A stretch of DNA of 31,184 bases. Source: a virus. The DNA lies in the IMG/VR virus record IMGVR_UViG_3300025759_000421, positions 1 to 31,184 of that record; one strand, written 5' to 3'. Each line of letters opens with the position of its first letter. Position 1 is the stretch's first letter. A program made the translations under genes and the position numbers. Of this stretch, positions 4,601 through 23,925 are shown piece by piece. The notes beneath the pieces are model-generated. The model had not been told where the DNA came from. It did no database searches and was given only the letters and a program-made list of their open reading frames with translations.

Positions 4601-4770
4601 TGGCCAGACAGCCTGAATACGACGGTTATCTTGCAGTTGAGGATGATCTAGTAAAAGAAACTTTTAGAGTGCAAGAAGAAAACATTAGAGTAGCTAATCA
4701 GAAGATAGAGAGCCTTGAACAAACAATTGCCGACCTAGCAAATAGAATAGTAGTTCTGGAGAGTGCATGA
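4600..4770 (+). CDS. 56-aa coiled-coil protein in tail operon
   Basis: Function unknown. The ATG overlaps the stop of the 866-aa gene (TAATG) and the TGA stop overlaps the next start (ATGA), so it fits between two structural genes without a free base. The product begins MARQPEYDGYLAVEDDLVK and continues as one predicted helix with heptad-like hydrophobic spacing (VQEENIRVANQKIESLEQ, then TIADLANRIVVLE), consistent with a short oligomerising coiled coil. There is no Shine-Dalgarno sequence upstream, so termination-reinitiation is likely. Its place between a nozzle-like protein and its beta-module relative suggests a small tail or connector component. Confidence 0.7.
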   Translation: MARQPEYDGYLAVEDDLVKETFRVQEENIRVANQKIESLEQTIADLANRIVVLESA

Positions 4771-5540
4771 GGCAAATAGTTCAAGCTGTAAATCTTAGGT
4801 ACAAAGGACAGCCTACTATATCGGTTTCAGTTGACGGTGTACCCCTAGTGGAAGATTTAGTTTTGCCAGCGCATAACGTCATGAAAAACAGGAGGGTTTG
4901 TCTGCCTCCAGGAGGGATAGGGTATACGCCTCAACTTCAAAGCACGTTTCAAGAATCTTTGACATACCAGTTTGAGACGATACCAGACGTAGAATTTTCT
5001 GATCAGCAACTATACCATTTCTACGAGGTTACTTTTACAGGTACTGTTCAGTTACAGATATATGTGGATGAAGTGGAGAAGTCTCCTAATAATTCAGAGG
5101 AATCTTCGGTTACGCTAACACCGAGGGGAAGTAGAAAGATTGACACCAGGAGAGTTTATTTTCCGCCTCTTGCTTATGGATGGGTGCCACAGTTAAAACA
5201 AGTAATAGACTCAACTGTAGATGCACAGGTCCTTAGTAATAGAATTAGAGCTCTGCCTAGTAGGTTCTTTAAAGGGGAAAGAGAGCACAGTGAGATACAG
5301 GTCACACACCAAGGGCCGCTTGAACTTGAGGTATTTTTAGATGGAAAATTACTAGCAGAATATAGATACGGCAAGGATAAATACAACGAGGATGCTTTCA
5401 AAACAGAAAAAGAATATCTTCCATCTAGCGCACGAGGTCAGATCCTACAATGGATACAATCTGATGGGACTGGGGAGGTTGCTAGTTTTGAAAGTGATAT
5501 TACATTGACAGATAGAGAACAGCCACAGACGGAGGTTTAA
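4767..5540 (+). CDS. Tail protein made of three beta modules
   Basis: Structural protein of unknown fold name, 257 aa. It consists of three diverged copies of one ~80-residue module, at about residues 1-75, 80-168 and 170-250. Each has a first strand pair ending in (V/L)DG or VDE (TISVSVDGVPL, LQIYVDEVE, LEVFLDGKLL), then a charged linker, then a (Y/C)xPP or YLP strand and a VPQL/ILQWI segment (GYTPQLQ, GWVPQLK, GQILQWI). The same module occurs twice at the C-terminus of the 866-aa protein. This points to duplication of a beta-sandwich building block within the tail. GGAG lies five bases before the ATG. The start overlaps the 56-aa gene and the stop overlaps the 501-aa gene. It has one cysteine. 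Confidence 0.7.
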   Translation: MRQIVQAVNLRYKGQPTISVSVDGVPLVEDLVLPAHNVMKNRRVCLPPGGIGYTPQLQSTFQESLTYQFETIPDVEFSDQQLYHFYEVTFTGTVQLQIYVDEVEKSPNNSEESSVTLTPRGSRKIDTRRVYFPPLAYGWVPQLKQVIDSTVDAQVLSNRIRALPSRFFKGEREHSEIQVTHQGPLELEVFLDGKLLAEYRYGKDKYNEDAFKTEKEYLPSSARGQILQWIQSDGTGEVASFESDITLTDREQPQTEV

Positions 5541-7045
5541 TGGCACAGGCACAGTTATCACCGATGAAAATGAAGGTCAAGGACGTTATAGCAAAATCCA
5601 AAGGCACCAAGTTTAAAGGTGTCAAGGAGAAGCACTACCCGGTCATGGTCAACAAGGCTGAGATGGGTGCGCTGAATGCTATGAAGAAACCCATACATGA
5701 ACGGGAAAAGGGCGGGTTCTTAGACAAGATGGTTAAGAAGGGCCTGAATGACGAGACCTATATCATGAAGGGAACTGAGCCTAAAGCGGTGGCTACACCA
5801 ATAGCCGCTATGCCTCCAGTAAACGAGGGCGGTTCTACTAAAACTTCTAGTGATGAAGAATCAAGAAATGCAAGCGGTTATACACCTTCTGAACAAAGAG
5901 TCGTAGATGCCGCAGTTGCTGCATCTTTTGCAGGTGGTGGTGGAGGTGATGGTGGCGGTAGTAGCAACAACCAGTCATCAGGTCCGTCATACCAATACAG
6001 CCAGCTTCAAAAACAGTTTGAGGATTACAAGGCTGGTGAACAAGGCAGGCTAGACGAAGCAAAAAAGACAGCCCTACAAGAACAAAGAGACTCTGCTCGT
6101 CAAGGTTTTGTAGATGACTACACGGGAGAGGGGGGATACCAGTCAAGGCTAGAGGACTTAGAAGGCCAGTTTGATTTAAGCAAAGAACGCAAGGCCATGA
6201 CTGATTTGGCTGGAGATGTAAAAACCCTGAGCTCCGATTATCAAAAGTCAATGACCGGAGAAGGTGGCTTCTCAGACAAGATCGGAGGGTTTGCAGGAGA
6301 TGTTGCAGGCTTGAGATCCGGGGTGGATACGTTAAGACAGCAACAGGGCACAATTGGTCAGCAAATCGGTGGATTAGCACAACAGGCTATGGACCCAACA
6401 AGCTCACCGTTGTATGACCAGAACAGAAGAATGCTGGCAGGGGTGGCGGAACAGCAAAGAAAATCCTCTGATGCTGCTGCTATGGCCCAGTTAAACAGGG
6501 GGGCGGCTGCTTCTGGTATGGACCCAGAAAAACTTGCTCTAGCGAGAGCTCAGTTGACAGCAGGACAGGGAGCAAGAGCACGGCAAGACGCACTATCCAG
6601 TGCGATGGGAGCCCAGCAGATGACAGGTCAACAGCTTGCTCAAGGGGCAGGACTGTTAGGACAGCAGGCTGGACTCGGTATGCAACAAGCCAATCTCTAC
6701 GGACAACAAGCTGGCCTAAGTGGACAGGCCGCAGGGTTGACTGGTCAACAAGCAGGAATGTTTGGTCAAGCGGCATCATTTGGAATGGGTGCTCTTGGTC
6801 AACGTGCAGGCTTACAAGGGCAGTCAGCAGGGTTGTTACAACAACAACTTATGGGTCGTGCTGGATTGATAGGATCACAAGGTCAGATGACTGAATACGG
6901 ATTACAAGATGTTGTGGCTCGTGACAACGCTGCAATGCAAATGGAGATGATGGAAAAAACCAACGCTGCAAATATTGAAGCCGCGAAGTATGGTAGTCGT
7001 GGTGGTGGTGGCGGTGGAGGATTACTTAGCTCACTAGGATTATAG
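5540..7045 (+). CDS. Putative internal virion protein, Gln/Gly heptads
   Basis: Candidate ejection protein of 501 aa. The N-terminal 75 residues are basic with Met/Lys pairs, resembling the 119-aa protein at the window start. Residues 130-145 are a Gly-rich linker. Residues about 150-350 are Gln/Glu/Lys-rich and probably helical or coiled coil. Residues about 362-446 carry Ala-Gly-Leu-x-Gly-Gln-Gln heptads. A poly-Gly stretch and LLSSLGL close the protein. Small hydrophobic residues on one face with Gln opposite would suit an amphipathic pore- or membrane-forming helix, as proposed for T7-type gp14, but sequence homology to gp14 is not evident. There is no cysteine. GGAGG sits four bases before the ATG, which overlaps the previous stop. 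It heads the four-gene cysteine-free block. Confidence 0.6.
   Translation: MAQAQLSPMKMKVKDVIAKSKGTKFKGVKEKHYPVMVNKAEMGALNAMKKPIHEREKGGFLDKMVKKGLNDETYIMKGTEPKAVATPIAAMPPVNEGGSTKTSSDEESRNASGYTPSEQRVVDAAVAASFAGGGGGDGGGSSNNQSSGPSYQYSQLQKQFEDYKAGEQGRLDEAKKTALQEQRDSARQGFVDDYTGEGGYQSRLEDLEGQFDLSKERKAMTDLAGDVKTLSSDYQKSMTGEGGFSDKIGGFAGDVAGLRSGVDTLRQQQGTIGQQIGGLAQQAMDPTSSPLYDQNRRMLAGVAEQQRKSSDAAAMAQLNRGAAASGMDPEKLALARAQLTAGQGARARQDALSSAMGAQQMTGQQLAQGAGLLGQQAGLGMQQANLYGQQAGLSGQAAGLTGQQAGMFGQAASFGMGALGQRAGLQGQSAGLLQQQLMGRAGLIGSQGQMTEYGLQDVVARDNAAMQMEMMEKTNAANIEAAKYGSRGGGGGGGLLSSLGL
6627..6880 (+). repeat. Coding heptad repeat AGLxGQQ
   Basis: About ten diverged 21-bp units encode Ala-Gly-Leu-x-Gly-Gln-Gln variants (AGLLGQQ, AGLGMQQ, ANLYGQQ, AGLSGQA, AGLTGQQ, AGMFGQA, then AGLQGQS, AGLLQQQ). 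Codons differ between units, so the repeat is kept at protein level and is not a recent DNA expansion. Confidence 0.75.
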
Positions 7046-7052
7046 GAACAAA

Positions 7053-7952
7053 ATGGCTATTGATTACGGGCTCGATGTCAGACAAGCGGCGATTAATAAT
7101 TTTTTAAACGCATCTGCTAGAAAAGCTTCTGCAAAAGCGGAGGCTGATGCTAGGGACAGAAAAGCCGCTAGGCAAAAAAGAAAGGGCCTTATGAGCCTCG
7201 CACTACACGCTGGGGCTGCTGTAGCAACGGGTGGAGCCAGTATTCCATACTCAATGAAGTATGGAGCCATGGCGAACCAAGCACTCATGGGTGACGACTA
7301 CCAGGGTAGTGACATGCAGGCATTGCAGGGGCTGGGAAGCATGGTCTACCAGGGTGCTGAAGCTAACAAGATGAAGAACCTTGCGGGTATGGAGAAGTCA
7401 TACAATGGTCAGCTAGATTCTATATATAAAGCAATAGATGCCCTGCCTCCCGGAGCTAAGATGGAGAGAGCAAGACTGGCAAACCAGGCGGCAAATCTTA
7501 CCACGACATTCCAGAAGAATCTGAAAGCGGCTGAGGCCAAGCCAGTATGGGAGTTTGCTTCTTCCGAGAGAGAGCGAATGCAGGCAAAGAGCCTGGGCGA
7601 GGTTGCGGATAAGGGGCAGAAGGCATACGACGATATGTACACAAATCAAGCTATCATTCCTCAGAAGGTTAAAGAGGCTGAGGGTTCTCAGGTTTCTGAT
7701 GCAAAAATAGCAGAAGCATACCAGCAAAGAGGCACTGAAAAATCAACAACTCCGGCTCCAGTGAAACAAGAGTTCACTCGTTATGACAACCCTAATATGT
7801 TAAGCCCCAGGCAACAAGCGGCTAAACGTAATCAGTTTAACCAAAGCGCAGACCAATATTACGAGGACATGCTAAGCCCCAGAGAAAAAGCAGCAAGGGA
7901 TAGAAGAACCTATGATAGGGGTTTCCTGCCTCAACTCGGAGGAGTTATCTAA
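7053..7952 (+). CDS. Putative internal virion protein (299 aa)
   Basis: Unrecognised protein, likely an internal virion component from its position and composition. The first 45 residues are an Ala/Arg/Lys-rich amphipathic helix. Residues about 46-66 (GLMSLALHAGAAVATGGAS) are a short hydrophobic Gly/Ala segment that could insert in a membrane. The rest is polar and mostly helical. Near the C-terminus a motif is repeated 24 residues apart (NMLSPRQQAAKRNQ and DMLSPREKAARDRR). There is no cysteine. AGGA lies five bases before the ATG. Seven non-coding bases separate it from the 501-aa gene, and its stop overlaps the next start. The small hydrophobic patch with long helices resembles the general plan of phage ejection proteins, but no family match can be claimed. 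Confidence 0.55.
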   Translation: MAIDYGLDVRQAAINNFLNASARKASAKAEADARDRKAARQKRKGLMSLALHAGAAVATGGASIPYSMKYGAMANQALMGDDYQGSDMQALQGLGSMVYQGAEANKMKNLAGMEKSYNGQLDSIYKAIDALPPGAKMERARLANQAANLTTTFQKNLKAAEAKPVWEFASSERERMQAKSLGEVADKGQKAYDDMYTNQAIIPQKVKEAEGSQVSDAKIAEAYQQRGTEKSTTPAPVKQEFTRYDNPNMLSPRQQAAKRNQFNQSADQYYEDMLSPREKAARDRRTYDRGFLPQLGGVI

Positions 7953-10900
7953 TGGCTGAGCTCACCGCATACGATAAGAAGAGACAGGAAGAATACAAGA
8001 AATTCCTAGCCGATCTTAAAAGAAACAAAAACAAACCCGCTCAGGTTTCAGATGCCCAGAGAAGGAGAGCTCGGGATGTTTTACAATCCTCAATGTATTA
8101 CCGTAGGCCAGACTTACAGCAATCACTGACCAATGCCCAGGAAGCTAACCGTGCAAAGAAGGAAGCAAACAAAAAGGAGAGTAACCAGTTAAGAGATATT
8201 ATAAACAGGACCCAGACCCCCTCTATACAAAACATGACAGTGGAGCAATTGCAGGCTCTCAGGAGAGAGAACGAGGATGAACAGCTTGCTACTTTGTATA
8301 GGACTAATCCCAACTTTGATACCGACAGTCCACCTGCAAGGGGTACTAAAGCCAGAGAAATATGGGATCGGGAAAACCAAAGGCGGTTGGATGAGAAGCA
8401 AAGGAAGATAGGCAAGGATTATGAGGACCAGGCAGACTACCTTCTTGCTGTGCCTGACGATAAGACAGCCTCGGCAAATCCACGATCTGCTTTAAAAGAT
8501 CCTGGGTTCAACCCAGACACAGATGCTGGAGCCCCACAAGGTCAGGTCTTTAATTTTATTGACTACGACAAGATGGTAGACCGGGAGGCTCAAAGTGAAA
8601 GAGAAAGGCTGGACAAAGAAAAGCTTATTAGTCTTCAAGGTAATTTTGATGAGCGTTCATCAGATGAAATCACACAGGGTATGATGGACAATGTGGCAAC
8701 TAGGGCATCCAGGAGAACCAATAACAGGGGGGAGCTTGATCCGAGGTCTTCTGCTGAAATAGAGGAAGGGTTGCTTTCAAATCTTGCTACTCGTCGTTCC
8801 AGAACAGCGGGAATGCAAGGGGACTTGCCAGACACTACATCCAAACAATACGAGCAAAGAATTAAATCCCAGGTAGGTCTTTCTGAAGAGATTGAGAAGG
8901 CTCAAAGGGCAGCCATGGGTCGGGGAACACAGTCCGAAATCAATAGGCAGAGAGCACTGAGAGCACCAGAAGTTGAGGACGGTGAGTTTGCTGAAAAGAA
9001 TAGAATGGAAGGTTTGTACCAGGAGGATTTAAAACCAACCAACAAGAAAGCAAAGCTTGAAGAGATAACAATTAATGCTACCGACATAGCAGAACAGCTT
9101 GACGAAGAAGGGATTACCGATCCTGAAGAACGAAAAGCTGTCAAGGAACAGGTAGGCAATTATTTCCGGGACACATCAACCAATCAGCTTATTAATCTTG
9201 ATCGGCTTCAGGCTGAGATGGATACGATACAGAAGAGGGAAGACTTGTTTGCGACAGCACAGTTGTTGTCGGGCAAGGCTCGTCAAAAGTTTATGATTAA
9301 TAACAACTTGATTGACGAGGATGATATTCCTGCACCAACCAAGCTTGAGGCCCTAGAAAAAGAATTAAAGTTAAACGAAACCCAGTTTAAATTAGCTGAG
9401 CTAGTTAAGAAAACCGCAGACTTAAATAAACCAGAAGCCAAGAAGTTGAGCGAAGAACAAAAGGCTATGGTTGATGTTGGTAAAGAATACTTGAAAGACG
9501 GTGACGTTGACAACGCCAGGGCTGCATTTGAGGCGGCTGGTATTAAAATGCCAAGCTTCAAGGTGAATAATAAGAAGGCTTCGGAAGCTTTAATAGAGTT
9601 GGCAGGTGGCACCATGGATCTAAGTAAGTATGGCGTGGCCACTAAAGAAGGTCTTGAGAAGTTTTTTGATAACTATCAAAGAGACAAAAGAGAATTATTA
9701 AAAGGAATGTCTAGCTTCAAATACGCAAGCGTAGATGGTTTTACTATTGAAAAGAAAACTAAATCAATTCCCTATTTTAAAAGTGCTGGTGTTCCGCTTT
9801 GGGAAGAGCTACAAGAAAGGGCTGGCACAGAAGGGGCTGTCACTAATTTTGACTTTATACAAGACAGTTCATTGCGTAGACGCATGGAGTTAGTATCTAA
9901 GCAATTAGGAGGATTTTCAAATGAAACAGAATATATATCTGCTGTTACTGACATTGTTTATGACCGTCAGTTGGACAGGCTTACAAATGGGTTCCATAGT
10001 GAATACCTCGACCTTACACAATCAGGAAAGGGGGACCAACCACTACTTACACCCGGATTTAAAAAAGGTTCTGACACTGGAGAAGAAGGAGCAGGAAGTG
10101 TCGAGGGAACAGATTTTGAGGAAGAGACTACTGGTAACGACCTTGCAATCAACCCAGAACAAGCATTCCTTCCCAAAGCCTTGGCGAGGAAAGATGAGAA
10201 CGTAGAATCTACGGATGCCGGAAGTGGATATGGAGGTTTAACTGAGGCACAAAGAGAACAAAGGGTCGGAAGCTTTAATGAAAGTATAGTACAAGGTGTT
10301 AAAGATTTCCTCCCAAAGATAAATCCTTTCCGAACAGAATTTGGCGACTATAGAAATAAGGATGCGCCTGTGGTTGACAGTGAGCCAGAAGGTGAAGGTG
10401 GTGGAGGTGGACAGTTACAAGCCGCAGAACTGGCTCAACCCATAAGTGATATGATTCTCAATGATCCACTCAACGAACAGTTTACCTTTGGTGATTTTAC
10501 CGACGGTAGACGAGGGGTGGAAAACTTGCAGGCCTTTGATAGAACTCAAAGATTTGAGGGGAAGTTCACACCCAAGATTAGGCAGGAATTTTTTGAGAAG
10601 AAAAAAGGCGAGAGAAGAAAGCCAGTAATGGCTAACGGCAAGCCAGTATATCACATCGGTTATGGCATTAGGCTACCTCTTAACAAGAAAGAGGTTCAGG
10701 TCTTGAGAAGCAACGGGTTCAAGGGCAACCCAAATGAGTTTCTCAAAGCACCTACCAGAGCCCATGCTAAAAAACTACAGGGTGATAAATACTCAATCAC
10801 AGAGAATCAAGCTGAGGCTCTGATGAAGCACCGTTATGCAAACCACATACGAGATTTAATTAAATCTAATGATGATTTTGCAGGGAACGATGAGTCAAAA

Positions 10901-11161
10901 AGAATTAACTGGAGCGGATTACCTAGACAAGTTCGTGAAGTTTTATTCGACATGTCTTATAATATAGGGCCAAGGTTTTTAACAAGGAAGCAAGATCCTT
11001 TTAAGAATTTAAGGCAGTCCATCCTAGATTACCAAGCAAGTCCCACTAGAGAAAACGTGGAGAAAATGGTTGTAGACATCCGAGAATCTAAATACTACCG
11101 AGAACAGGTGGGCAATAGAGCATCGGCTAACATGCAAACACTTCTTGATCTGATAAATTAA
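7952..11161 (+). CDS. Ejection protein with C-terminal lysozyme-like domain
   Basis: A 1069-aa protein, probably in the virion and responsible for local peptidoglycan digestion during DNA entry. Residues 1-850 are charged and mostly helical, with a ~30-residue tandem repeat at about 228-300 (ERSSDEITQGM, PRSSAEIEEGL). An acidic, Gly-rich linker ends near residue 830. Residues about 860-1065 look like a T4-lysozyme-type (GH24-like) domain: RFEGK with candidate catalytic E869, YHIGYGIRL in the place of the T4 YYTIGIGHLL strand, and VREVLFDMSYNIG matching the later buried helix. The T4 threonine is replaced by H901 and no clear equivalent of the catalytic Asp is seen, so activity is uncertain. 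There is no cysteine. GGAGGAG precedes the start, which overlaps the upstream stop. T7 gp16 similarly joins a wall hydrolase to an ejection protein, but at its N-terminus. Confidence 0.7.
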   Translation: MAELTAYDKKRQEEYKKFLADLKRNKNKPAQVSDAQRRRARDVLQSSMYYRRPDLQQSLTNAQEANRAKKEANKKESNQLRDIINRTQTPSIQNMTVEQLQALRRENEDEQLATLYRTNPNFDTDSPPARGTKAREIWDRENQRRLDEKQRKIGKDYEDQADYLLAVPDDKTASANPRSALKDPGFNPDTDAGAPQGQVFNFIDYDKMVDREAQSERERLDKEKLISLQGNFDERSSDEITQGMMDNVATRASRRTNNRGELDPRSSAEIEEGLLSNLATRRSRTAGMQGDLPDTTSKQYEQRIKSQVGLSEEIEKAQRAAMGRGTQSEINRQRALRAPEVEDGEFAEKNRMEGLYQEDLKPTNKKAKLEEITINATDIAEQLDEEGITDPEERKAVKEQVGNYFRDTSTNQLINLDRLQAEMDTIQKREDLFATAQLLSGKARQKFMINNNLIDEDDIPAPTKLEALEKELKLNETQFKLAELVKKTADLNKPEAKKLSEEQKAMVDVGKEYLKDGDVDNARAAFEAAGIKMPSFKVNNKKASEALIELAGGTMDLSKYGVATKEGLEKFFDNYQRDKRELLKGMSSFKYASVDGFTIEKKTKSIPYFKSAGVPLWEELQERAGTEGAVTNFDFIQDSSLRRRMELVSKQLGGFSNETEYISAVTDIVYDRQLDRLTNGFHSEYLDLTQSGKGDQPLLTPGFKKGSDTGEEGAGSVEGTDFEEETTGNDLAINPEQAFLPKALARKDENVESTDAGSGYGGLTEAQREQRVGSFNESIVQGVKDFLPKINPFRTEFGDYRNKDAPVVDSEPEGEGGGGGQLQAAELAQPISDMILNDPLNEQFTFGDFTDGRRGVENLQAFDRTQRFEGKFTPKIRQEFFEKKKGERRKPVMANGKPVYHIGYGIRLPLNKKEVQVLRSNGFKGNPNEFLKAPTRAHAKKLQGDKYSITENQAEALMKHRYANHIRDLIKSNDDFAGNDESKRINWSGLPRQVREVLFDMSYNIGPRFLTRKQDPFKNLRQSILDYQASPTRENVEKMVVDIRESKYYREQVGNRASANMQTLLDLIN

Positions 11162-14100: not shown

Positions 14101-17100
14101 GAGTCGATGGAGAAAAAGACTTGGCCAGAACAGTTGGTCAAGGACCTTTCAAATTTTGAAAGTTTTCCGCAGGAGTTCCAGGATAGTTTCCGCAAGTCCC
14201 TGAAGTCTGGGCTCAGAAAGCGTGAGCAAGAACTAGCCAACGCAGTCCTGGCCAAGGGTCGTCAGGCGTTCCTACAAAAGAAGAAGGGCAACGTCACACC
14301 AGACACCAGTGCAACCAAGGGCTTTGAGCAGGGTGGTGCGAAGTGGAAAGAACTGGTTGACGATGTTCCTAAGTTTGCCAGGACCACGCCCGAGATCCAA
14401 AGGGCGATGAGAGCTCAGGATATTAGTGAGTCCCAGTCTGCTGTATACAACAAGCCTGATGTTTTAAAAGCGAAGAACAGGATTCTAAGACAATACGGCA
14501 GTTTTGAAAACCTCCCCTACAGAAGGTACACAAAACACAAGGGTTACAGGGTGGTTAGGTTTGACAAGATCAAAGACTATAGTGATTTTAAAAACTACAT
14601 AAACAGACTCGATGACACCAACAAAATTAGGGAGTGGAAGAACAGCCCTCTATCTGATGCAGGAGAGGATGCTTCTTTTCATGTTGCTTTTAATGATGAA
14701 GGGGTCCTGTTAAGAGATGATAGGTATGGCGACAAGGTGGGAATATTCCCTTACGAAAGTGATGCCATAGCTGCTATTGATAGCCTGGACGACATCAGCG
14801 AGTCCAAAATATCAGACGATCCCAAAGCCAGAAAGATGATGGTGCTCCCACCGAAGGCTCTGCCCGGAGGTAGGGTGTTTCAGCAGTGGGCTGACCGTAA
14901 GATGATAGATGCGGAAGATGCTCCCGAGTACAGAGCAGGGGGTCGTGTTATAGACGTAAGTGACGGTATGCCTGCGAGTGCCAAGCAACCTGACATGACG
15001 GGCACAACCGTACCTTACGCAGAGATCGACACAAACTTTCCGGGGAACAGGGCTTCGTTCAATGTATCTGGTGTAGACTCGCAGAAAAAAATTAAAGGGG
15101 TACGCAGGGATCAAAAGGTGGCAGGCAACAGGATCTCTGGTGGTGCTATTATCAAAGCAAATCTTATCGGGCAGGGTCAGGCCAAGTTTATTGATGCTTT
15201 ACCAGGAGTCAATACCACCACAAAGAATATAGCTACGTTGCAGGCTGAACAGATTAGAAAATACAACGAGGAAAAAGATGTACAAAAATCTAAAAAGGGC
15301 AACTACTCAGACCACCTGTTTGCCACCAAGATTGTATACGACACAGATGTCGAGCTAAGTACGACTGGAACAGACAAGCCACAACCTTCAGTTCGCCCCA
15401 CAACATACGGAGACATTATAGTTGGCAACCAAGTAGCAACCATTAGGATGGGTGACCGTATAGCCCCCCTGTATGATTCGCTATATGTGGTAGCCCCTGG
15501 AGACGACATCTCCTTTTCTTACGTTGGTGAGAAAGGATTCGCGGAATTCAACAAGCGGAATCCAGGAAGTCTATCTGCCAAAGAGTTCATGACCGATCTG
15601 TCCAGGCAAAAGAAAGGACAGAAGGGTGGCAGATGGTTCAACCCTGGACTGCCAGATGACAAGTGGAGACTGGAGGTTCCGAACACGGGGACCAAACTCA
15701 AATCCATGCCTATATCTTTCAATGGCAGAGATGCAAACTGGGTTGTAGATTTTGATGCCAGTAAGTTTGAGGGAACAAGGAAGCCTGAAGGTAGGAGGGT
15801 TTCCGACAATAAGAAAGTTCGGTTAGCACAAAGTTTACCATGGCTCTCCCTTAAAAACTTTGTAGACATCGGAGTCCTGGCTGACTACTACCCTAAACTT
15901 AATGACGCGTATGTTCACTTTGCAGAAGACATGCAGGGGGAACCTCTCTACTACGGCACAGCTATCCAGCTTCCAGATGATAATAACGGATTGAGTTTTA
16001 TCCTGGGTGTCAAACCGCCAGACCCTGAAGTCATAGAATTCTTGGACCAGTCAAACATGGGAGCTTCAACCAGAGACTGGCTTGAAGACATCTACATGGA
16101 CAAGATGAACCAGGCTGGTCACGACGGAATCCCGCATAGACTTATAGGGAGCCTGCTTCACGAAATACAGCACTACATCCAGGGAGTCGAAGGATTTGAA
16201 AAGGGTGGTAACCCTGAAGAAATGATGAATCGCTTGGGTGAAGACAGAATAAAGAACTCAATAAGAAACAATACCAAGGGGGTCTGGGTATCTATAAGTC
16301 CTAATTCAAGACTCAGAATACAGAAAAGATTTGCCAAGGTGATGGAAGATCGCTTTGGGATAGATGAGGCTAAAAAGAAAATAGCTGCATTCGGTTTTAA
16401 GACTCCATACAGGGGGACAGCATGGGCTAAAGGTAATTTGTTTTTAGATGACGACCCATTCAAAACTTACGAAAGGTGGGGCAAGAAGACTCGGTTGAAC
16501 ATGATGGACATGCTCACGATGCCATATCAACTTAGTGAAGCCCTGGAGAATAAGAGAAACGCATTATTTAAAGATGTAACATCAGGCCTTGCGGGGGCGA
16601 TAGGTTCCCTGGTCAGAGAAAAAGCTATTAGCAAAAATGATGTAGCTAAGCTGTTGAAGTCAGTCAATGAATTAATGGTTCCATTCAATCTCAATGTCTT
16701 GGGCATGGCTTCTGTAGAACCGCTTAGTACCAGAATAGTTGGAGATGACTGGTCACAGATGATCGCTCAGTCAGACTATCTTAGGTTAGCAGGAGAGATT
16801 GAAGCTAGGGATGTTGAGCAAAGATACATAGATATGATCCGTGGTAATGGCAGGTCTGGATTACCTACCATCTTGAATGAACAACAGAAAAAGATATTAG
16901 AGAAGAAATCACCTACCTTGCCATTCTTACGGGGTGGAACCGAGCGTGATATTACAACAATAGGCAAGGGCAATTACACAGGGTCTATCCCAATGAATGT
17001 CCCTGGTGAAAAACCCCTTGGTGCCCCATGGGATGTCAAGGACATGATCAGCTACTCAATGAGTGACCCGCTTGCTGACTATGCTGACCGCTTAGACATC

Positions 17101-20100
17101 ACAACAAGAACTAGGATCGCACAGATCAACAACCTGGAGAAGGGCACACCGCAGAGGCGAGAAGCTATTCGTCAATTGCATCTGGACATGATGCTTAATC
17201 CCATTCCATTTGGTGACCCAACAAAGCCACTACCCTATCAGGACGAGCTCACATCCTCGGTACCATTTGAGGATCTATCCTGGTCTCAAAGACTTCCGGG
17301 GCATGAGCTATCTGCTAAGACCCTCTTCAAGAAATACTTAAAAGACCCAGCCGAGTGGGAGAAGATCCGTGTAGCCAAGGGTGGGTACTCTGCCATAGAA
17401 GAGACCGACGTAGATCCTGACGATGATACAGAAGCTACGGGTGCTGGTGGTAGGAAATCAAACAAGAAAATTAGTGGCCTTGGATTAAGGACCAAAGCAT
17501 CCCTGAAGAAAAAGAAAAAAGAAACCCAGGCTGCATACGAGGCTAGACTAAAGAAGCAGGCTGAGAAAGATTTTGGAACCATGGCAAAGAGGGCCGCGAG
17601 GCTTCTTTACATGGGTAAGATTTGGACGAACTGGCAAACCATTCGTGACATGTTTGGCCTGAACGCAGGAGGCAGAGGCAGAGATGCTGTTCCTTACCTG
17701 GGTCACATCATCAGCTTTATGAAGATGCAAAGAGACAAGCTGATGAAGGGTGAGCTCACACCGAGGGACATAGTCAAGTCAGTGGTCATGACACTTGCCA
17801 GCCAGGGTGCCGATGCTAATAATCCATGGACTGTCTATAACTTTACTGGTGGAGTCAAGAAGGCGAAGAGTGCAAAGAGCGGGAAAAAGCCTGCCAACCT
17901 GAAGACCTATGTGGAGTACATGAATGGTGCCGACTGGGTCAAAGGAAATTCTAAGACTATTGAAGCAAATATAGGTCAGAAGGAACTGAACGGAGAGTTG
18001 ACAGAAGAGCAGGTTGCGGAGTGGTATAACAAGTCACCGCTCTGGGTTGTCAGTGTGCCATGGACTGGTGAGGGGCCTGTCACTATGTACAATGAGGACG
18101 GTACGGTAGACCGTGACACAACCTACGCTGACATATCTGATGGAGCCTTGTATAAGAAGACTGTTTCTTTTGAGGAAGCACTCAGGACACCGAAGTATTC
18201 ACTAAAGGATGTCTTCGAGACAGACAAGGACGGGAATATTGTGGAAGAAACTGTCCCGGTAATCGATAAAAAGACCGGCAAACAAAAGATTAAAAAGGAT
18301 GGAACGCCACAGGTTAAGAAAGTAAAAATAAAGACTGGCGAAAAAAGAATGGAAGCCAGTGACGAGATGCAATACACGGGTGGTAGACCAGAGATTGTAA
18401 AAGTAAAAGGCCAGTGGAAACTTCGGATTGACGGAAAGAACTATGCTGGAATGGCAGACTACCTCACAGGCAACAAGACAAAGTTGTTTGAGGAAATGCC
18501 GTTATGGTACAGAGACCCAGGAAACAACGACGCTCCCAATGCACAGACTGGAGCAGTATGGGTACCACAAGAATACGCAACCACCGGGGGTAAACCCAGA
18601 ATGGAGGATGCTGTAGCCTACTACTTCTCAACGGATGCGGGGCAGGCTCTGCTAGATGGAATAGAGAAGGGCGAGTTTGATCTGAAGGAGTGGAGAAAGT
18701 TAGCCAATGTAAGAATGGCGTATGGCGATGACCGACTTAACCAGTTACTCAAGCCTGCACAAAGAAAGAAGAATGGAGAGTTTAAGAAGGCGGGACTACA
18801 GGACATCGTAGAGTATACCGAGGGCTTCAATAAGATTATCAAAGATGTCATTGGTGACCTTGATCCTAAAGACTTGCAGGGCAACGATGAGGCTTCTGTC
18901 CAGTTGAGATTTGATTTAGCCAAGCAGCTTGGAGAATACGCACAGAAACTGTACGGCATTGCCGGGGCGAAGCAGGCTTTCTTCAAGCACTTCCTCGGCT
19001 TGGGTGATGCCCCGACAATAGATGCTATCGAGTACAACACTCACATAGCAGGAAGCCCAGCTACTGATCTGGCTGTATCACCGTTGACGGGTAAGCCAGT
19101 TGCTAACACATGGAGGGTTGACCTGAAGTGGTGGGCTCTCAAGCTACAAGACCTGCAACTTTCTAATTATGTACCAGGCGTTGAGGCTAAAGCGAAGGGC
19201 GAGACCTTCTTTGACCACTACAGAAATGTAATACAGACAGCTTTCGACGATATAAAAAGGGATGTTGATAGCCGAGACCCATCAATCTTTGAAGACGTAC
19301 CTCCAGATTACTTCTACCATGTCATGCACCACTGGCTCTGGGATGTTGGCAAGGCCCTGACACGAGCCGATGCGGTGATGGGTAAGTCTACAGAGAGATT
19401 CCGACCAGCCGCTTACGAGGCTATGTGGAGAGATGCCGCACAAAAAGTCCTTTCATACTTCAGGAAAGATCCCATCGAGGCAGAGATGGTTCCTTGGGTT
19501 GACCCAGAAGTCTCTCAGTTTAGAGATATAACAGAAAAATATTTAAGCGAACCTGAACCAGGACAGATTGACGGAGTTTTTGAGTTGTCCGAAGGAGATG
19601 CAAAAGCTTTACAAGATGGAGCGATTTCTGAATCAGTAAACCTCCAACCACTTGTCAATAAGCTAATGCAACGAAGTATTGCTGACAGGTTTGCCACAGG
19701 ATTTTATGTAGCTAAAGATCAGACAAGTACAATCTGGCCTGACACCTACCAAGGCAAGAAGGGTTATTGGATGAGAGGTGGAATCGGGTACCCATTACTC
19801 GATGAAAATATAAATGGAATACAAGGTGTTAAACCTAAAAAAGGACAGGTTAAAGGCCGTGCTGCTTGGGCATCTAACAATCCAAGGATAACCAAGCAAG
19901 CAAGAGACTTACAGAAACTAGGGGCAGAACATGTGCTAACCGTTATTGGTAGTGAAGAAATGCACTTTTCCAATAAAGCATATTGGGCTATCTGGTGGAG
20001 AGAAACTCAAGACTTGATGAGGAACAAACCTGCTGTAGCACAAAAGGTTAATGATGCCATTGACACTATCCTGAACAATGATGTCTCTAAAAATATAATT

Positions 20101-23100
20101 CCTCTAAAGACTCTGTTACTAAATGAAAAGAAAAACAACCCTGGAAAAAGTAACTGGGAGTTGTTAAAGGCGACAGCACCAGAACTTTCTTTTCAAAACA
20201 GAAAACCAGTTGTTGATTATTTTGGCGGTAGCTTTGGGACAAAAACAGATACGGCTATTGGGTACTCAAATAAAGAGCTATGGAAAGACACAACAATTTT
20301 TAAAGGTGCCCCGATGCACCTGCCTGTTGGAATCATAAAACTAGATGCTGTTGGTAATCAGTTTGATGAAATGACTCACGCAGATATTGGAGTTCCTAAG
20401 CATGATGCCTACCCCTATGTTGTGCAAGGAGAACTGATTGCATCTTTTATTGATAGTTTTGATCAGCCAGTTGTTAATAAGCCTATTGCAGACTTCAAAG
20501 AAATATTTGAAGACTTGCAAGAAAGGATACACAGCCTAAAAGACTATCCATCTGCAATGCCTTTTAGGATTGATGAAAGGTGGGATACCAAAAAAGGGAA
20601 GTGGGTTAAATCTAAATTTAATTTTGGCTCTGTAAAGACCCCATACAAACTCCCGGGTGCGGTCATCTCTAACTTTGAACAATTGATGGATGCACCAACC
20701 ACGCCGATCTCATTCAGCGAGGCTGTAACCAAACTGTCAACTCAACCTGGGCATGTCGCAGACTTTAACAATGCACGACAAAAGCAGGCTGAGTATGCCA
20801 CAAGCGAATCAATATTCTCCAGACCCCTGGATCAGGACCTAGAACTTCCGGGTGGTCGCAAGATCAGTGACATCGTTACCAGATTCATGGAGCCATTCGG
20901 CAAGACTGATGCTCCAGAAATGCTCCGTGATATACGTCGAAGAACTCGTGGAAGGATTCTCCGCATTGAGGAAGCAGGGTCTAAGTTATACAAGGCTCTA
21001 TTCAAAACGAAGAACCCTGAAATTATTTACAAGTATCTGACAACGAAAGGAGGTGACTCGTCTTCCATTCCTGACGCTAATGAAAGGAATGCGGCTGAAA
21101 AAGCAAAGCTTGCTATACTTCAGGCTGGGCAAGATTTAGTAGACAGGGGTCTGCTACCACCAGATGCCTTGAAGAAATATGGAGACGGATACCTACCTAA
21201 ACTTTATCTCCAGTATTTACTGGACGACAATGACCGATATGCGATACAGAGGGGACAGTCCAACAAGGTTTCTAACATGGACTACCTCAAGCGCAGAGGT
21301 CATGTTGAGGAATCAGTAGCAGAATTTGTCAAGGGTGTAGTCAAGGACCCTGCATTCCTCGTCAGTAAAGCCACGATCCAACCGGGCCGTGACATGGCGT
21401 TGCTTGACATGTTTAGTGAGATGGTCACAACAAGTCAGCAGAACAATTTTAACTGGGTTCTGCCAGAGTCAATAGTCGATGACTTTGATTACGCAAGGCT
21501 GATCGCCAAGATTGCTGGCAACACTGAGATCGGCATGGAGCTCAAGGAACAGTTAGCTAAGAGTGACAGTGATCGTGATCGGATCGTTGCCCAGATTGAA
21601 GATTTAAAGCAGGCTATTAAAAAAGAGAGGGAGGTACTACGGGCGAAAGATCGCATGAAGTCTAAAGCATTGAGTGCGATGATCAAAGAACAGCAGGGCC
21701 TACGAGACAAGCTAAAAGCTTACTCGCCTAAGAAGATGTCTGGGTATGGATTGAAGGCTGAGGCTGACAGGATCTTTAAGACAATCTATCCACAGGTCAG
21801 ATCCAGGAATGAGAAGGAAGCAAAGATTGTTGCTGACCTTGTCGATGAGATGAACAAGATAGCTGACCAGACAATAGGCAGAGTTATCATACCAAAGGAC
21901 TACGCTCAGATCCCTGACAATGCGCGTTACGGGTCCATGCGTGGGCTCGTAGTGCAGAAAGAAATCTACGATGATTTGGTTGGATCTCTGAAGATGATGA
22001 AGCCAGAGAATGCAGCCGAGGCAATCATTGGAGAGGGTGGATTACTGGGTAAGACAAGCAGGCTATTTAAATGGTCCAAGGTTACCGCAAACTTCCCAGC
22101 AGCTTGGGTCCGTAACTTCTCATCCAACCTAGTGTTCATGAACATCGGTGGTATGCCGATGGGTAAGATCCCTTATTACCTGACAAAGGCAACCAGGGAG
22201 ATGATCAAAACCTGGAAGGGAGAGAAGTCAATCTACGATGAGGTCAAGGACTTTGGATTAACATCTTCTACGTTTGCATCTGTCGAGCTCGGTAGGATTG
22301 AGAAAGAGTTTGAAAACTACCTGAACAGAACACAGAGGAAGGGCACTCCATTCAAGGCGTTCTTTGTTGCCAAAGAGCTACTGGTCACAATGCAAGACTG
22401 GACGAGTGACAAGTATGGTCTGGTTGATTCTCTTGGCAAGACCATGATGTACATGAACGGCATCGACAAGGGCATGACACCACAGGAAGCCGCAGACCAC
22501 GCAGAGAAATGGTTGTTCGATTATTCCCTGGTTAAACCATCAGTAAAAACACTGAGGCAGTCAATTGTTGGAGCACCCTTTATCACATACACGACGAAGG
22601 TGTTTCCTCTCCTGGTAGAGACCGCACTGACCAGGCCCTGGAGGTTCGCTCCATACTTCGCACTGCCCTATGCCATGGCAGCCCTGTTCAAAGAAACACA
22701 CGACCTTGATGATGAAGAGTATGAACAGCTAATGATGTCTCTCCAGGAGTACATGAGAGAGAAACGGTACGCAGGCAACATCATGCCCCTACCATACCTG
22801 GATAAATTTGGCAGGCCTCAGTTCCTGGATCTCGCATACCTCTACCCATGGGGTATGTTCACAGAGATTGCATCGGAGGCACAGGATGATCCAGGTGCGA
22901 TCATGCAGACACTTGGATTACTTGGTGGTCCAGTAGCCTCTATCATAACGGTGATCAGTTCTGGTGGCATCGACCCATTCACACGAAGGCCTGTTGCTAA
23001 CAAACTCGATGCTCCTGAGCAAAGAGTTAAGGACTACCTGACCTACATTTACAATCTCATGATGCCTCCATTCCTGCATTCAGATTATGGAGCTCTGAAC

Positions 23101-23439
23101 CGGATTATGCAGACACTGGACGGTGAGATGAACAGATACGGGGAGCCAATGAAAACTATACCTCAAGGGCTTTCACAGGCTGTCGGATTTAACGTCTCAC
23201 CTGTTGATATTGGAAGTCAGAGAGGAAGGAATGCTCGGTACATGCAGTCCGAGATCCTGAAGACCATGGGCTACGCAAGACGGACGCTCCGTGACATGAC
23301 CAGAATGGGCAAGAGTGATGAAGAAATAAAAGAAAAGAATGAATACTTTAAGAAGATAATCAACGAGCGCAAGCAGAAGCTACTCGATTATCTCAAGGCC
23401 TCAAAGTTTCCAACTGAGAAATTGAAACAGGCCAACTGA
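11161..23439 (+). CDS. Giant 4092-aa polyvalent protein, zincin-like motifs
   Basis: One unbroken frame encoding about 4092 residues, with no cysteine. Visible parts in order: an acidic N-terminus; a hydrophobic Gly-rich segment at 161-203 that could enter a membrane; coiled coil at about 380-600; a first zincin-like motif HEVFGHYGLR (H761, E762, H766); a second, canonical HEIQH (H1667, E1668, H1671) followed by EGFEKGGNP and by LAGEIEAR (1876-1883), the usual third-ligand segment of zincins in phage polyvalent proteins; a Lys-rich linker near 2110; FFKHFLGLGDAPTID near 2600; coiled coil near 3480-3550; and a C-terminal region (FPAAWVRNFSSN near 3650, FDYSLVKPSV near 3785) resembling large polyvalent protein associated domain 38. 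The start overlaps the lysozyme-protein stop (TAATG) and lacks a Shine-Dalgarno sequence. Probably a packaged protein that processes host or phage proteins after entry; this role is inferred. Confidence 0.7.
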   Translation: MADITFDVWLKRNRKPGESMREAISRYSDEQFVGRRGRDYLTEVFSDEIEAEDQVKLAEQPEPPPDPDEQPYADFGETMYKSLVGLGETGAGLAATVLPEGYGKETMTEIAQDLQEVKTTEKPAATYEDYVREGGFIGGLYEMLPESTPTFGEMGEGALESFFPTVTSIAGATLGFFTQGPTGMVLGGTLGASAGSTAVVTGGTYTRVLEDDNIREALGVQKGVDYTELSDEEQARMRDIASEIAGDTGLTRSYTSGVLELPSNLFLPWIKGWGAVKQVAARYGMDVLGGTAAEVMDEQVYAYEVKQNLMEAGLDEAQAEAYRQKIREMGPTNFETAWGAFVNEVVMGGAPAVAEATTAYALKRDHRVDAPATINEELTESITDESLEAAYAEAEKEIRDQEQQARKEQEAELKRRRDEFKFQQEAQLKTLQIEDQKLRNKRSAEKIKDETGQTVGAVEQTLESPGKTVREKLKRDLVPLEQAEAKKKKPKRGKSGKFETEEQQLTPSQKLNQIGQMAGEERLAQEVREEFQAGQEQIVTDLEMSESERREAESLETASIEDIQADAYLQETQQKQREEDQAFLESERREQEGMNKVYQDMGVLSYSEASNPNKDTFAEALADVDTKLPEEQQSEILDQKIEVLENEMDNPGGRGVSPLSFRMGQAALKSITKFFSGVGVKISAITREQRYAGMVQGLYGPEFAKSTDPLEEKRRHHKRLKSIYKGEGFAVGVSQIVIAPESIYGETERDAIKRMVQVVFHEVFGHYGLRMKKGGTEAQPMSKDYKDMMYGFGKFAKKDIKAWLNGSLGYGYQGQKYNWEKDVDFDKGDISFKQIEEYVARNYAEYGIQKEWAIDRLVQSLRKMFKGFPGFNSVTDRDLIEVLNQLQDEYIPNNRSIVSGNKQSKKPKAQVQTPEEQEEEVSIDPDQEISESRRPSDFDRFVSFGGKPPLRQFDKKKFDTRRAPKKTAQDAERYVDASILESMEKKTWPEQLVKDLSNFESFPQEFQDSFRKSLKSGLRKREQELANAVLAKGRQAFLQKKKGNVTPDTSATKGFEQGGAKWKELVDDVPKFARTTPEIQRAMRAQDISESQSAVYNKPDVLKAKNRILRQYGSFENLPYRRYTKHKGYRVVRFDKIKDYSDFKNYINRLDDTNKIREWKNSPLSDAGEDASFHVAFNDEGVLLRDDRYGDKVGIFPYESDAIAAIDSLDDISESKISDDPKARKMMVLPPKALPGGRVFQQWADRKMIDAEDAPEYRAGGRVIDVSDGMPASAKQPDMTGTTVPYAEIDTNFPGNRASFNVSGVDSQKKIKGVRRDQKVAGNRISGGAIIKANLIGQGQAKFIDALPGVNTTTKNIATLQAEQIRKYNEEKDVQKSKKGNYSDHLFATKIVYDTDVELSTTGTDKPQPSVRPTTYGDIIVGNQVATIRMGDRIAPLYDSLYVVAPGDDISFSYVGEKGFAEFNKRNPGSLSAKEFMTDLSRQKKGQKGGRWFNPGLPDDKWRLEVPNTGTKLKSMPISFNGRDANWVVDFDASKFEGTRKPEGRRVSDNKKVRLAQSLPWLSLKNFVDIGVLADYYPKLNDAYVHFAEDMQGEPLYYGTAIQLPDDNNGLSFILGVKPPDPEVIEFLDQSNMGASTRDWLEDIYMDKMNQAGHDGIPHRLIGSLLHEIQHYIQGVEGFEKGGNPEEMMNRLGEDRIKNSIRNNTKGVWVSISPNSRLRIQKRFAKVMEDRFGIDEAKKKIAAFGFKTPYRGTAWAKGNLFLDDDPFKTYERWGKKTRLNMMDMLTMPYQLSEALENKRNALFKDVTSGLAGAIGSLVREKAISKNDVAKLLKSVNELMVPFNLNVLGMASVEPLSTRIVGDDWSQMIAQSDYLRLAGEIEARDVEQRYIDMIRGNGRSGLPTILNEQQKKILEKKSPTLPFLRGGTERDITTIGKGNYTGSIPMNVPGEKPLGAPWDVKDMISYSMSDPLADYADRLDITTRTRIAQINNLEKGTPQRREAIRQLHLDMMLNPIPFGDPTKPLPYQDELTSSVPFEDLSWSQRLPGHELSAKTLFKKYLKDPAEWEKIRVAKGGYSAIEETDVDPDDDTEATGAGGRKSNKKISGLGLRTKASLKKKKKETQAAYEARLKKQAEKDFGTMAKRAARLLYMGKIWTNWQTIRDMFGLNAGGRGRDAVPYLGHIISFMKMQRDKLMKGELTPRDIVKSVVMTLASQGADANNPWTVYNFTGGVKKAKSAKSGKKPANLKTYVEYMNGADWVKGNSKTIEANIGQKELNGELTEEQVAEWYNKSPLWVVSVPWTGEGPVTMYNEDGTVDRDTTYADISDGALYKKTVSFEEALRTPKYSLKDVFETDKDGNIVEETVPVIDKKTGKQKIKKDGTPQVKKVKIKTGEKRMEASDEMQYTGGRPEIVKVKGQWKLRIDGKNYAGMADYLTGNKTKLFEEMPLWYRDPGNNDAPNAQTGAVWVPQEYATTGGKPRMEDAVAYYFSTDAGQALLDGIEKGEFDLKEWRKLANVRMAYGDDRLNQLLKPAQRKKNGEFKKAGLQDIVEYTEGFNKIIKDVIGDLDPKDLQGNDEASVQLRFDLAKQLGEYAQKLYGIAGAKQAFFKHFLGLGDAPTIDAIEYNTHIAGSPATDLAVSPLTGKPVANTWRVDLKWWALKLQDLQLSNYVPGVEAKAKGETFFDHYRNVIQTAFDDIKRDVDSRDPSIFEDVPPDYFYHVMHHWLWDVGKALTRADAVMGKSTERFRPAAYEAMWRDAAQKVLSYFRKDPIEAEMVPWVDPEVSQFRDITEKYLSEPEPGQIDGVFELSEGDAKALQDGAISESVNLQPLVNKLMQRSIADRFATGFYVAKDQTSTIWPDTYQGKKGYWMRGGIGYPLLDENINGIQGVKPKKGQVKGRAAWASNNPRITKQARDLQKLGAEHVLTVIGSEEMHFSNKAYWAIWWRETQDLMRNKPAVAQKVNDAIDTILNNDVSKNIIPLKTLLLNEKKNNPGKSNWELLKATAPELSFQNRKPVVDYFGGSFGTKTDTAIGYSNKELWKDTTIFKGAPMHLPVGIIKLDAVGNQFDEMTHADIGVPKHDAYPYVVQGELIASFIDSFDQPVVNKPIADFKEIFEDLQERIHSLKDYPSAMPFRIDERWDTKKGKWVKSKFNFGSVKTPYKLPGAVISNFEQLMDAPTTPISFSEAVTKLSTQPGHVADFNNARQKQAEYATSESIFSRPLDQDLELPGGRKISDIVTRFMEPFGKTDAPEMLRDIRRRTRGRILRIEEAGSKLYKALFKTKNPEIIYKYLTTKGGDSSSIPDANERNAAEKAKLAILQAGQDLVDRGLLPPDALKKYGDGYLPKLYLQYLLDDNDRYAIQRGQSNKVSNMDYLKRRGHVEESVAEFVKGVVKDPAFLVSKATIQPGRDMALLDMFSEMVTTSQQNNFNWVLPESIVDDFDYARLIAKIAGNTEIGMELKEQLAKSDSDRDRIVAQIEDLKQAIKKEREVLRAKDRMKSKALSAMIKEQQGLRDKLKAYSPKKMSGYGLKAEADRIFKTIYPQVRSRNEKEAKIVADLVDEMNKIADQTIGRVIIPKDYAQIPDNARYGSMRGLVVQKEIYDDLVGSLKMMKPENAAEAIIGEGGLLGKTSRLFKWSKVTANFPAAWVRNFSSNLVFMNIGGMPMGKIPYYLTKATREMIKTWKGEKSIYDEVKDFGLTSSTFASVELGRIEKEFENYLNRTQRKGTPFKAFFVAKELLVTMQDWTSDKYGLVDSLGKTMMYMNGIDKGMTPQEAADHAEKWLFDYSLVKPSVKTLRQSIVGAPFITYTTKVFPLLVETALTRPWRFAPYFALPYAMAALFKETHDLDDEEYEQLMMSLQEYMREKRYAGNIMPLPYLDKFGRPQFLDLAYLYPWGMFTEIASEAQDDPGAIMQTLGLLGGPVASIITVISSGGIDPFTRRPVANKLDAPEQRVKDYLTYIYNLMMPPFLHSDYGALNRIMQTLDGEMNRYGEPMKTIPQGLSQAVGFNVSPVDIGSQRGRNARYMQSEILKTMGYARRTLRDMTRMGKSDEEIKEKNEYFKKIINERKQKLLDYLKASKFPTEKLKQAN

Positions 23440-23508: not shown

Positions 23509-23925
23509 ATGTCAACATACCTTGATCCCTTCAGGGGTCTGGGCCTGGGCTTCGACGCGATGTTCGATGCTCTCGAGGCTTTCGACTCCCTAACCCCATC
23601 CAGAAACAACTACCCTCCATACAATCTGATCCGTGATGGTGAAAACTACACGCTCGAGGTTGCTTTGGCAGGATTCAAGAAGGAAGACATTCAGGTTGAG
23701 CTCAAAGAGAACAAGCTGACTGTCGAAAACATCCGTAAGGATGCCACTGAGAATGAAGATTACATTCACAGGGGGATAGCATCACGCCATTTCATGAGGC
23801 AGTGGCTACTTCATGACGATGTAGTTGTGAAATCTGCGAGTCTTGAGGACGGGATTCTCTCTATAAAAATGGAGAAGATTATCCCGGAGGAAAAGAAACC
23901 TAAAATAATAAAGATTACAAGTTGA
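23509..23925 (+). CDS. hsp20: Small heat-shock protein (Hsp20/alpha-crystallin)
   Basis: ATP-independent holdase chaperone of the Hsp20 family, 138 aa, acting in the host cytoplasm. The N-terminal arm (DPFRGLGLGFDAMFDALEAF) and YPPYNLIRDGENYTLEVALA, then GFKKEDIQVELKENKLTVE, give the start of the alpha-crystallin domain. The IbpA-like segment YIHRGIASRHFMRQWLL follows, then VVVKSASLEDGILSIKMEK. The C-terminus PKIIKI supplies the I-x-I-type tail used for oligomer contacts. Length is normal for the family. AAGGA lies five bases before the ATG, and a strong promoter sits just upstream. Phage Hsp20 genes are known in marine phages and are thought to help fold virion proteins or protect the stressed host. 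The last codons are duplicated 41 bp downstream. Confidence 0.92.
   Translation: MSTYLDPFRGLGLGFDAMFDALEAFDSLTPSRNNYPPYNLIRDGENYTLEVALAGFKKEDIQVELKENKLTVENIRKDATENEDYIHRGIASRHFMRQWLLHDDVVVKSASLEDGILSIKMEKIIPEEKKPKIIKITS

Follow-up and report, generated by a model that had tools for sequence, protein, structure and literature searches.

Absence of cysteine from a block of four candidate ejection proteins in a phage genome fragment, and its recurrence in ejection proteins of other tailed phages

A four-gene block without cysteine and its relatives

Why would a phage encode four consecutive proteins, the last of them 4092 amino acids long, without a single cysteine? This question is raised by a 31,184-base virus record of IMG/VR (IMGVR_UViG_3300025759_000421), here called the window, which we treated as a genome fragment and in which open reading frames (ORFs) were called. 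A first-pass annotation had reported zero cysteines in four adjacent products, and our ORF calls and residue counts confirmed it, with 0 cysteines in 5961 residues for the following four ORFs together:

5540..7045, + strand: 501-amino-acid protein with 0 cysteines and 26 methionines, the C-terminal half with Gly/Gln/Ala-rich repeats; candidate small ejection protein
7053..7952, + strand: 299-amino-acid protein with 0 cysteines; candidate ejection protein
7952..11161, + strand: 1069-amino-acid protein with 0 cysteines; candidate ejection protein with a C-terminal lysozyme-like domain
11161..23439, + strand: 4092-amino-acid giant with 0 cysteines; likely an injected multidomain cargo

The block follows the genes of an 866-amino-acid phrog_511 protein and a 257-amino-acid protein, and its genes are consecutive, as in podovirus ejection blocks.

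The absence of cysteine is real and strongly beyond chance. Dozens of cysteines had been expected in the first-pass annotation, and three null models indeed gave 33-67: 33 if the block had the cysteine rate of the four late proteins encoded upstream, 9/1616 (Fisher P = 9e-7), 44 from a model of amino-acid composition, and 67 from the base composition per codon position, against 0 observed. In the composition model, a Poisson regression, cysteine is predicted from the other 19 amino acids, with 410 non-ejection phage ORFs as the training set. The block DNA has 117 and 280 TGT/TGC triplets in its two non-coding forward frames and none in frame, and 1071 codons of the block are one base change away from cysteine. 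There are 63 in-frame TGG codons in the block, methionine makes up 3.1% of its residues, and the giant contains 59 tryptophans and has an ordinary aromatic content. Because TGT/TGC is absent in frame and common out of frame, while tryptophan and methionine are present, the constraint acts at the level of the protein, and on cysteine, not on sulphur.

The four ORFs are evidently real genes, judging from their intact counterparts in IMGVR_UViG_3300021197_001657 (59,233 bases; hereafter G001), with 59-73% identity. The G001 block encodes proteins of 502/300/1029/3975 amino acids, all without cysteine, and the identity over aligned columns is 73% for the 501-, 71% for the 299- and 59% for the 1069-amino-acid protein, and 65% for the giant. 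Between the two blocks, 1963 sites are substituted and none of the substitutions involves cysteine; six genes flanking the block have 9/1015 that do (Fisher P 6e-5). The absence has thus been kept up over roughly 2000 substitutions, and selection keeps cysteine out of the block. The 501-amino-acid gene has, in addition, partial cysteine-free copies in two other genomes (L024 and L025) and a full cysteine-free copy in a third (L022).

More distant blocks are present in MW202615 (ctwe8250) and in IMGVR_UViG_3300045963_000039 (hereafter L021). They encode 619/385/2166 and 619/365/2163 amino acids, respectively, with 0 cysteines, in phages that have cysteine in most of the other large proteins examined. 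The two blocks resemble that of the window in following the nozzle gene (an order common to the window, G001, MW202615 and L021), in being cysteine-free throughout, and in the last 790 residues of their giants, the only part homologous to the window (about 26% identity). They differ from it in their giants, which are half as long, and in having fewer small proteins; homology of these to the smaller proteins of the window was not detected. Counting cysteines in homologues had been proposed in the first-pass annotation as a check, and the block is free of them in G001, MW202615 and L021 alike.

Cysteine in ejection proteins of other phages

To see the locus in a wider context, we surveyed ejection proteins of other phages, which were picked by publication, annotation or position and not by their cysteine content. 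Cysteine is absent from N4 gp50-52 (4136 amino acids examined), P22 gp7/20/16 (1309), phiEco32 gp22-26 (2956) and the ejection proteins of phiKMV (2416), and is rare in those of T7 (gp14-16, one in 2261), P-SSP7 (one in 2282) and epsilon15 (gp15-17, four in 2394). The phiEco32 proteins were taken, on the basis of gene order and a transglycosylase annotation, as counterparts of SU10 gp20-24, which are experimentally known to be ejected (PMC9509320); HTVC010P was left out of the counts, as its ejection genes were not assignable. Pooled over the seven named podoviruses, there are 6 cysteines in 17,754 ejection-protein residues versus 118 predicted from composition, while nine portal proteins have 33 versus 40 predicted.

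The same was seen in another lineage, represented by 25 metagenomic Kafunavirus-like phages, where EJ1 is cysteine-free in 17/17 cases, EJ2 in 19/19 and EJ4 in 21/25, the last with a median identity of 29.5%. The portal gene that lies between EJ2 and EJ4, by contrast, encodes cysteine in 20/22 (Fisher P 2e-25 versus the EJ proteins). This gene had first been labelled as a possible third ejection protein, a label set aside on the basis of annotation and a later PHROG match (phrog_156, E 1e-98 to 1e-105 in KF-1 and PH1). The depletion is therefore specific to particular proteins inside operons, as portals within some ejection operons keep normal cysteine.

The full set of ejection- or tape-measure-like ORFs, 120 in number and grouped into 34 homology clusters, contains 19 cysteines versus 657 predicted, and depletion recurs in ejection families unrelated to each other. 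Proteins of at least 600 amino acids without cysteine make up 49/61 of the ejection-like set versus 2/91 of the others. The composition-predicted cysteine rate of ejection proteins is itself below average (median 0.6%). In Agrobacterium phage Atu_ph08 (L062:467-15100), a 4877-amino-acid 'DarB-like' giant with a single cysteine stands beside two cysteine-free virion structural proteins.

The few cysteines that remain are not spread evenly, since 11/19 are no more than 10 residues away from one of the two ends of the chain (P 3e-13), versus 6% in other proteins; the number of terminal cases rises to 13 if the annotated starts of T7 gp14 and epsilon15 gp17 are used. The gp14 proteins of T7, P-SSP7 and epsilon15 (L017, L053, L052) have exactly one cysteine each, at residue 2. 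Removal of the initial methionine would leave an N-terminal cysteine, which may be a functional site. Depletion was also found in the tape measure of Lactococcus phage TP901-1, which has 0 cysteines in 937 amino acids with about 7 predicted.

The first-pass annotation named the N4-type virion RNA polymerase (vRNAP) as a cysteine-free precedent, and correctly so: later published accounts describe this enzyme as cysteine-free and give a rationale based on the tail and the periplasm (PMC3915230, PMC2784036, PMC3715699). The window resembles the N4-type system of Schitoviridae (gp50, the vRNAP, with the co-ejected gp51 and gp52) in that a cysteine-free giant stands beside smaller cysteine-free ejection proteins, and the feature given for N4-type enzymes, a length of about 3500 amino acids without any cysteine, is seen in our giant as well (0/4092). 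It is unlike N4, however, in that the giant has no polymerase match, the smaller proteins are unmatched to those of N4, and the gene order is nozzle, 257-amino-acid protein, three proteins and giant. Zobellviridae and StenR_269 likewise have, in the same relative place, large cysteine-free giants described as 'internal virion' proteins (PMC10747016); in ICP2, gp5 and gp6 have 0 cysteines in 2076 amino acids. These giants were read as putative vRNAPs partly because they lack cysteine (PMC10747016). Since the absence of cysteine marks ejection proteins generally, it is not evidence for a polymerase, which corrects the practice of naming cysteine-free giants virion RNA polymerase (PMC10747016).

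A general statement of a block-wide, cross-family cysteine rule was not found in the open-licence literature, so priority is uncertain; the word 'cysteine' is absent from the main text of an ejection-protein review and of the papers on the N4 vRNAP structure, DEV, PhiM1 and polyvalent proteins (PMC5512222).

Possible reasons for the absence

We favour the explanation that the four products are internal ejection proteins of a short-tailed phage, from which selection excludes cysteine to avoid cross-links during storage, passage and refolding, and we give it a probability of about 0.7. What we infer in this explanation is that the proteins are part of the virion, that they are ejected and that disulfides are the reason. 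Three of the proteins would be structural or cell-wall-opening components, one of them with a lysozyme-like end, and the fourth would be a multidomain cargo of 4092 amino acids; all four would travel inside the head and leave it by way of the portal and nozzle, to enter the cell envelope or cross it. During storage in the head, the chains would be kept clear of disulfide and mixed-thiol cross-links, and they would later be threaded through a channel too narrow for folded domains and refolded beyond it. An intrachain disulfide would then block unfolding, and an interchain disulfide would block release. For both N4 vRNAP and T7 gp16, it has been proposed that the protein unfolds as it passes (PMC12633501, PMC8954989). 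The terminal exceptions could be tolerated because a cysteine at the end of a chain would hinder threading least.

Several observations weigh against this explanation. The 501-, 299- and 1069-amino-acid proteins gave no Pfam or PHROG match, including to characterised ejection proteins; a convincing family match was absent for the 299-amino-acid protein in these searches, and relatives of the 1069-amino-acid protein were not found in the phage collection. The ejection status of the surveyed proteins is experimental for some of the named phages and based on synteny or annotation for others, and ORFs of one cluster are related, so that their counts are not independent, although most clusters are individually zero. 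Cysteines in the interior of the chain are present in epsilon15 gp15 (two) and crAss001 gp45 (two), with further cases in crAss001 gp50 (one) and P2 gpT (one). A plain exception is T4 Alt, which according to its annotation goes into the host together with the DNA: with 3 cysteines in 681 amino acids, it is not depleted. Finally, seven scaffolds (L016, L017, L018, L019, L053, L057, L058; one of them, N4 gp57, is a doubtful assignment) have 1 cysteine versus 13.4 predicted and are not injected. Because these non-injected proteins are similarly depleted, the set of depleted proteins is wider than what is ejected; the sample of scaffolds is small, and location and mobility are inseparable in it, as scaffolds also exit the shell through openings. 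The proposal of the first-pass annotation that depletion marks the injected proteome thus holds in so far as it recurs across unrelated podoviruses and the block looks ejection-type, and is qualified by the scaffolds and by T4 Alt.

Alternatively, depletion may be a property of all non-shell proteins of the head and tail lumen, whose free thiols would cross-link in assembly or storage, ejection not being the cause. The depleted scaffolds and tape measures agree with this, as do the shell, portal and nozzle proteins, which carry cysteine. However, T4 Alt is internal and not depleted, and the scaffolds leave through narrow openings too, which confounds mobility with location; we regard this alternative as less likely than not. 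A narrower version is that cysteine is avoided since host enzymes (DsbA) would introduce disulfides during the crossing of the periplasm of a Gram-negative host; avoidance of periplasmic disulfides is also the reason named in the first-pass annotation. This argument has been made for the N4-type vRNAP (PMC3715699), podoviruses that infect Gram-negative hosts show strong depletion, and the undepleted T4 Alt, which is delivered by a long contractile tail, would be in keeping with it. On the other hand, the TP901-1 tape measure and the scaffolds, the latter never in the periplasm at all, are outside its reach and nevertheless depleted, if in small samples. This reason is not established, and we consider it rather unlikely.

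Simpler causes fare worse. Long, charged, helical proteins could be poor in cysteine by plain composition, and the low composition-predicted rate of ejection proteins points that way; yet the composition model still predicts 657 cysteines against 19 seen in the survey and 44 against 0 in the window, the giant has its tryptophans and ordinary aromatics, and large cysteine-free proteins are as rare outside the ejection-like set as given above. A simple compositional origin was ruled out by this model, and we hold composition to be a very improbable reason. A bias at the level of DNA, or sulphur economy, might have stripped cysteine codons from a contiguous block such as this one. It is contradicted by the frequent out-of-frame TGT/TGC, the 63 TGG codons and the methionine content, as well as by the cysteine-bearing portal gene inside the ejection block of other phages; both forms were ruled out by the frame, tryptophan and methionine counts, and we see practically no chance for them.

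The locus is an instance of a wider regularity, which is of more interest than the locus itself. We lean, without strong conviction, towards cysteine exclusion being a signature of all tailed-phage proteins that exit through the head or tail channel, namely podovirus ejection proteins, tape measures and perhaps scaffolds, with cysteine tolerated only at the extreme ends of the chain. Ejection proteins diverge past recognition, and for uncultured phages it is therefore seldom clear what part of the virion enters the cell. If the rule is true, cysteine exclusion could predict the injected proteome of such phages without homology, giant cargoes included. It also bears on how multidomain giants pass a channel of 30-45 angstrom (PMC12633501).

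Domains of the block and its edges

Within the two larger proteins of the block, the following features were recognised:

10514..11158, + strand: putative T4-lysozyme-like (GH24/pesticin-type) domain, about residues 855-1069 (the last 215) of the 1069-amino-acid protein
13441..13458, + strand: HEVFGH motif of the giant, residues 761-766, putative metallopeptidase site
16159..16173, + strand: HEIQH (HEXXH) motif of the giant, residues 1667-1671, second putative metallopeptidase site
21019..23385, + strand: C-terminal domain of the giant conserved in distant podovirus giants, residues 3287-4075

The AlphaFold model that covers the domain in the 1069-amino-acid protein had a mean predicted local distance difference test score (pLDDT) of 58, mostly 70-90 across the lysozyme-like part. 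With this part, Foldseek returned mainly T4 lysozyme, its fusion constructs and pesticin, with a top probability of 1.00, a modest E of 0.06 and a template modelling (TM) score of 0.53. The Pfam Pesticin match was weak (E 0.12), and a PDB profile search with the region gave no credible match. The Glu of the FEG motif is conserved. These results, with their modest scores, would fit a wall-opening ejection protein. The equivalent of Thr26 of T4 lysozyme reads His by eye (YHIGYG versus YTIGIG); in T4 lysozyme itself, a T26H substitution gives a different type of reaction.

In the giant, the first peptidase motif extends to HExxGHxGxR, common to the giant and three relatives, with H, E, G, H, G and R invariant in the four aligned sequences, and the second is kept as HE(I/V)QH in G001; structure prediction of the latter region gave no usable fold (pLDDT 36). 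No Pfam domain was detected in the metallopeptidase regions, and PDB profile searches with the peptidase and C-terminal regions gave no credible match. The C-terminal domain matches MW202615 (26% identity, E 2e-52) and L021 (E 1e-63). The homologues of the giant are uncharacterised giants only, and a prophage scan of genome contigs did not find its C-terminus. The identity of the giant as an N4-type RNA polymerase was tried and rejected, as a single-subunit RNA polymerase domain was unmatched in Pfam, PHROGs and PDB sequences. We read the giant as a probable polyvalent-type cargo, multidomain and injected. It resembles polyvalent proteins (Iyer et al. 2017, PMC5512222) in being very long and multidomain, lying near late genes and carrying HEXXH-type motifs, and is unlike them in that none of their listed domains was detected by Pfam or PHROGs.

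The giant of L021, cysteine-free and probably injected, contains a GGDEF-type domain (L021:8114-8449, residues 698-809 of 2163; Pfam PF00990, E 4e-9; signature SGDEI). This domain may be a nucleotide cyclase delivered by injection, or else a degenerate relative; the SGDEI/GGDEF signature is not kept in the giant of MW202615. The N-terminal 540 residues of the L021 giant (L021:6023-12514) match PHROGs named DarB-like antirestriction, virion RNA polymerase and endolysin, which suggests a leader region that may be common to injected giants. Profile-profile comparison showed no similarity between the N-terminal region of the window's giant and the N-termini in L021 and MW202615.

The block is bordered by three further genes:

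2000..4600, + strand: 866-amino-acid nozzle/hub-like tail protein with 4 cysteines, used as flanking control; phrog_511, E 2.5e-25
4767..5540, + strand: 257-amino-acid protein with 1 cysteine; soft 5' edge of the block
23509..23925, + strand: 138-amino-acid HSP20-type small heat-shock protein with 0 cysteines; Pfam HSP20, 4e-19; phrog_432

The cysteine counts given in the first-pass annotation for the neighbours were right, including those for M15 (3), the reductase (15) and the primase (11). Its claim of an exact boundary stands only in part: the four genes have zero cysteines and the 866-amino-acid protein has four, but the 257-amino-acid gene, with one cysteine in the window and L025, has none in G001 and L024, and the HSP20 protein has none either, which is uninformative at such a short length. 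The place 3' of the giant is taken by HSP20 in the window versus a 193-amino-acid cysteine-free protein without a Pfam match in G001 (31962-32543).

At the other end of the window, positions 2-433, cut at the contig start, encode a partial cysteine-free protein 5' of the M15 gene, which is Lys-rich and has 15 methionines in 143 residues. Its counterpart in G001 is 221 amino acids long and also cysteine-free. The product is possibly another internal head protein.

Relatives of the 866-amino-acid protein are nozzle/hub proteins in KF-1, VPMS1, PH1 and MW202744, the last annotated as a phage stabilisation protein. Both PHROGs and RefSeq (NC_021776, NC_031908, NC_019420) give the phrog_511 protein the label 'internal virion protein'; its cysteine content is normal, and the label looks wrong.

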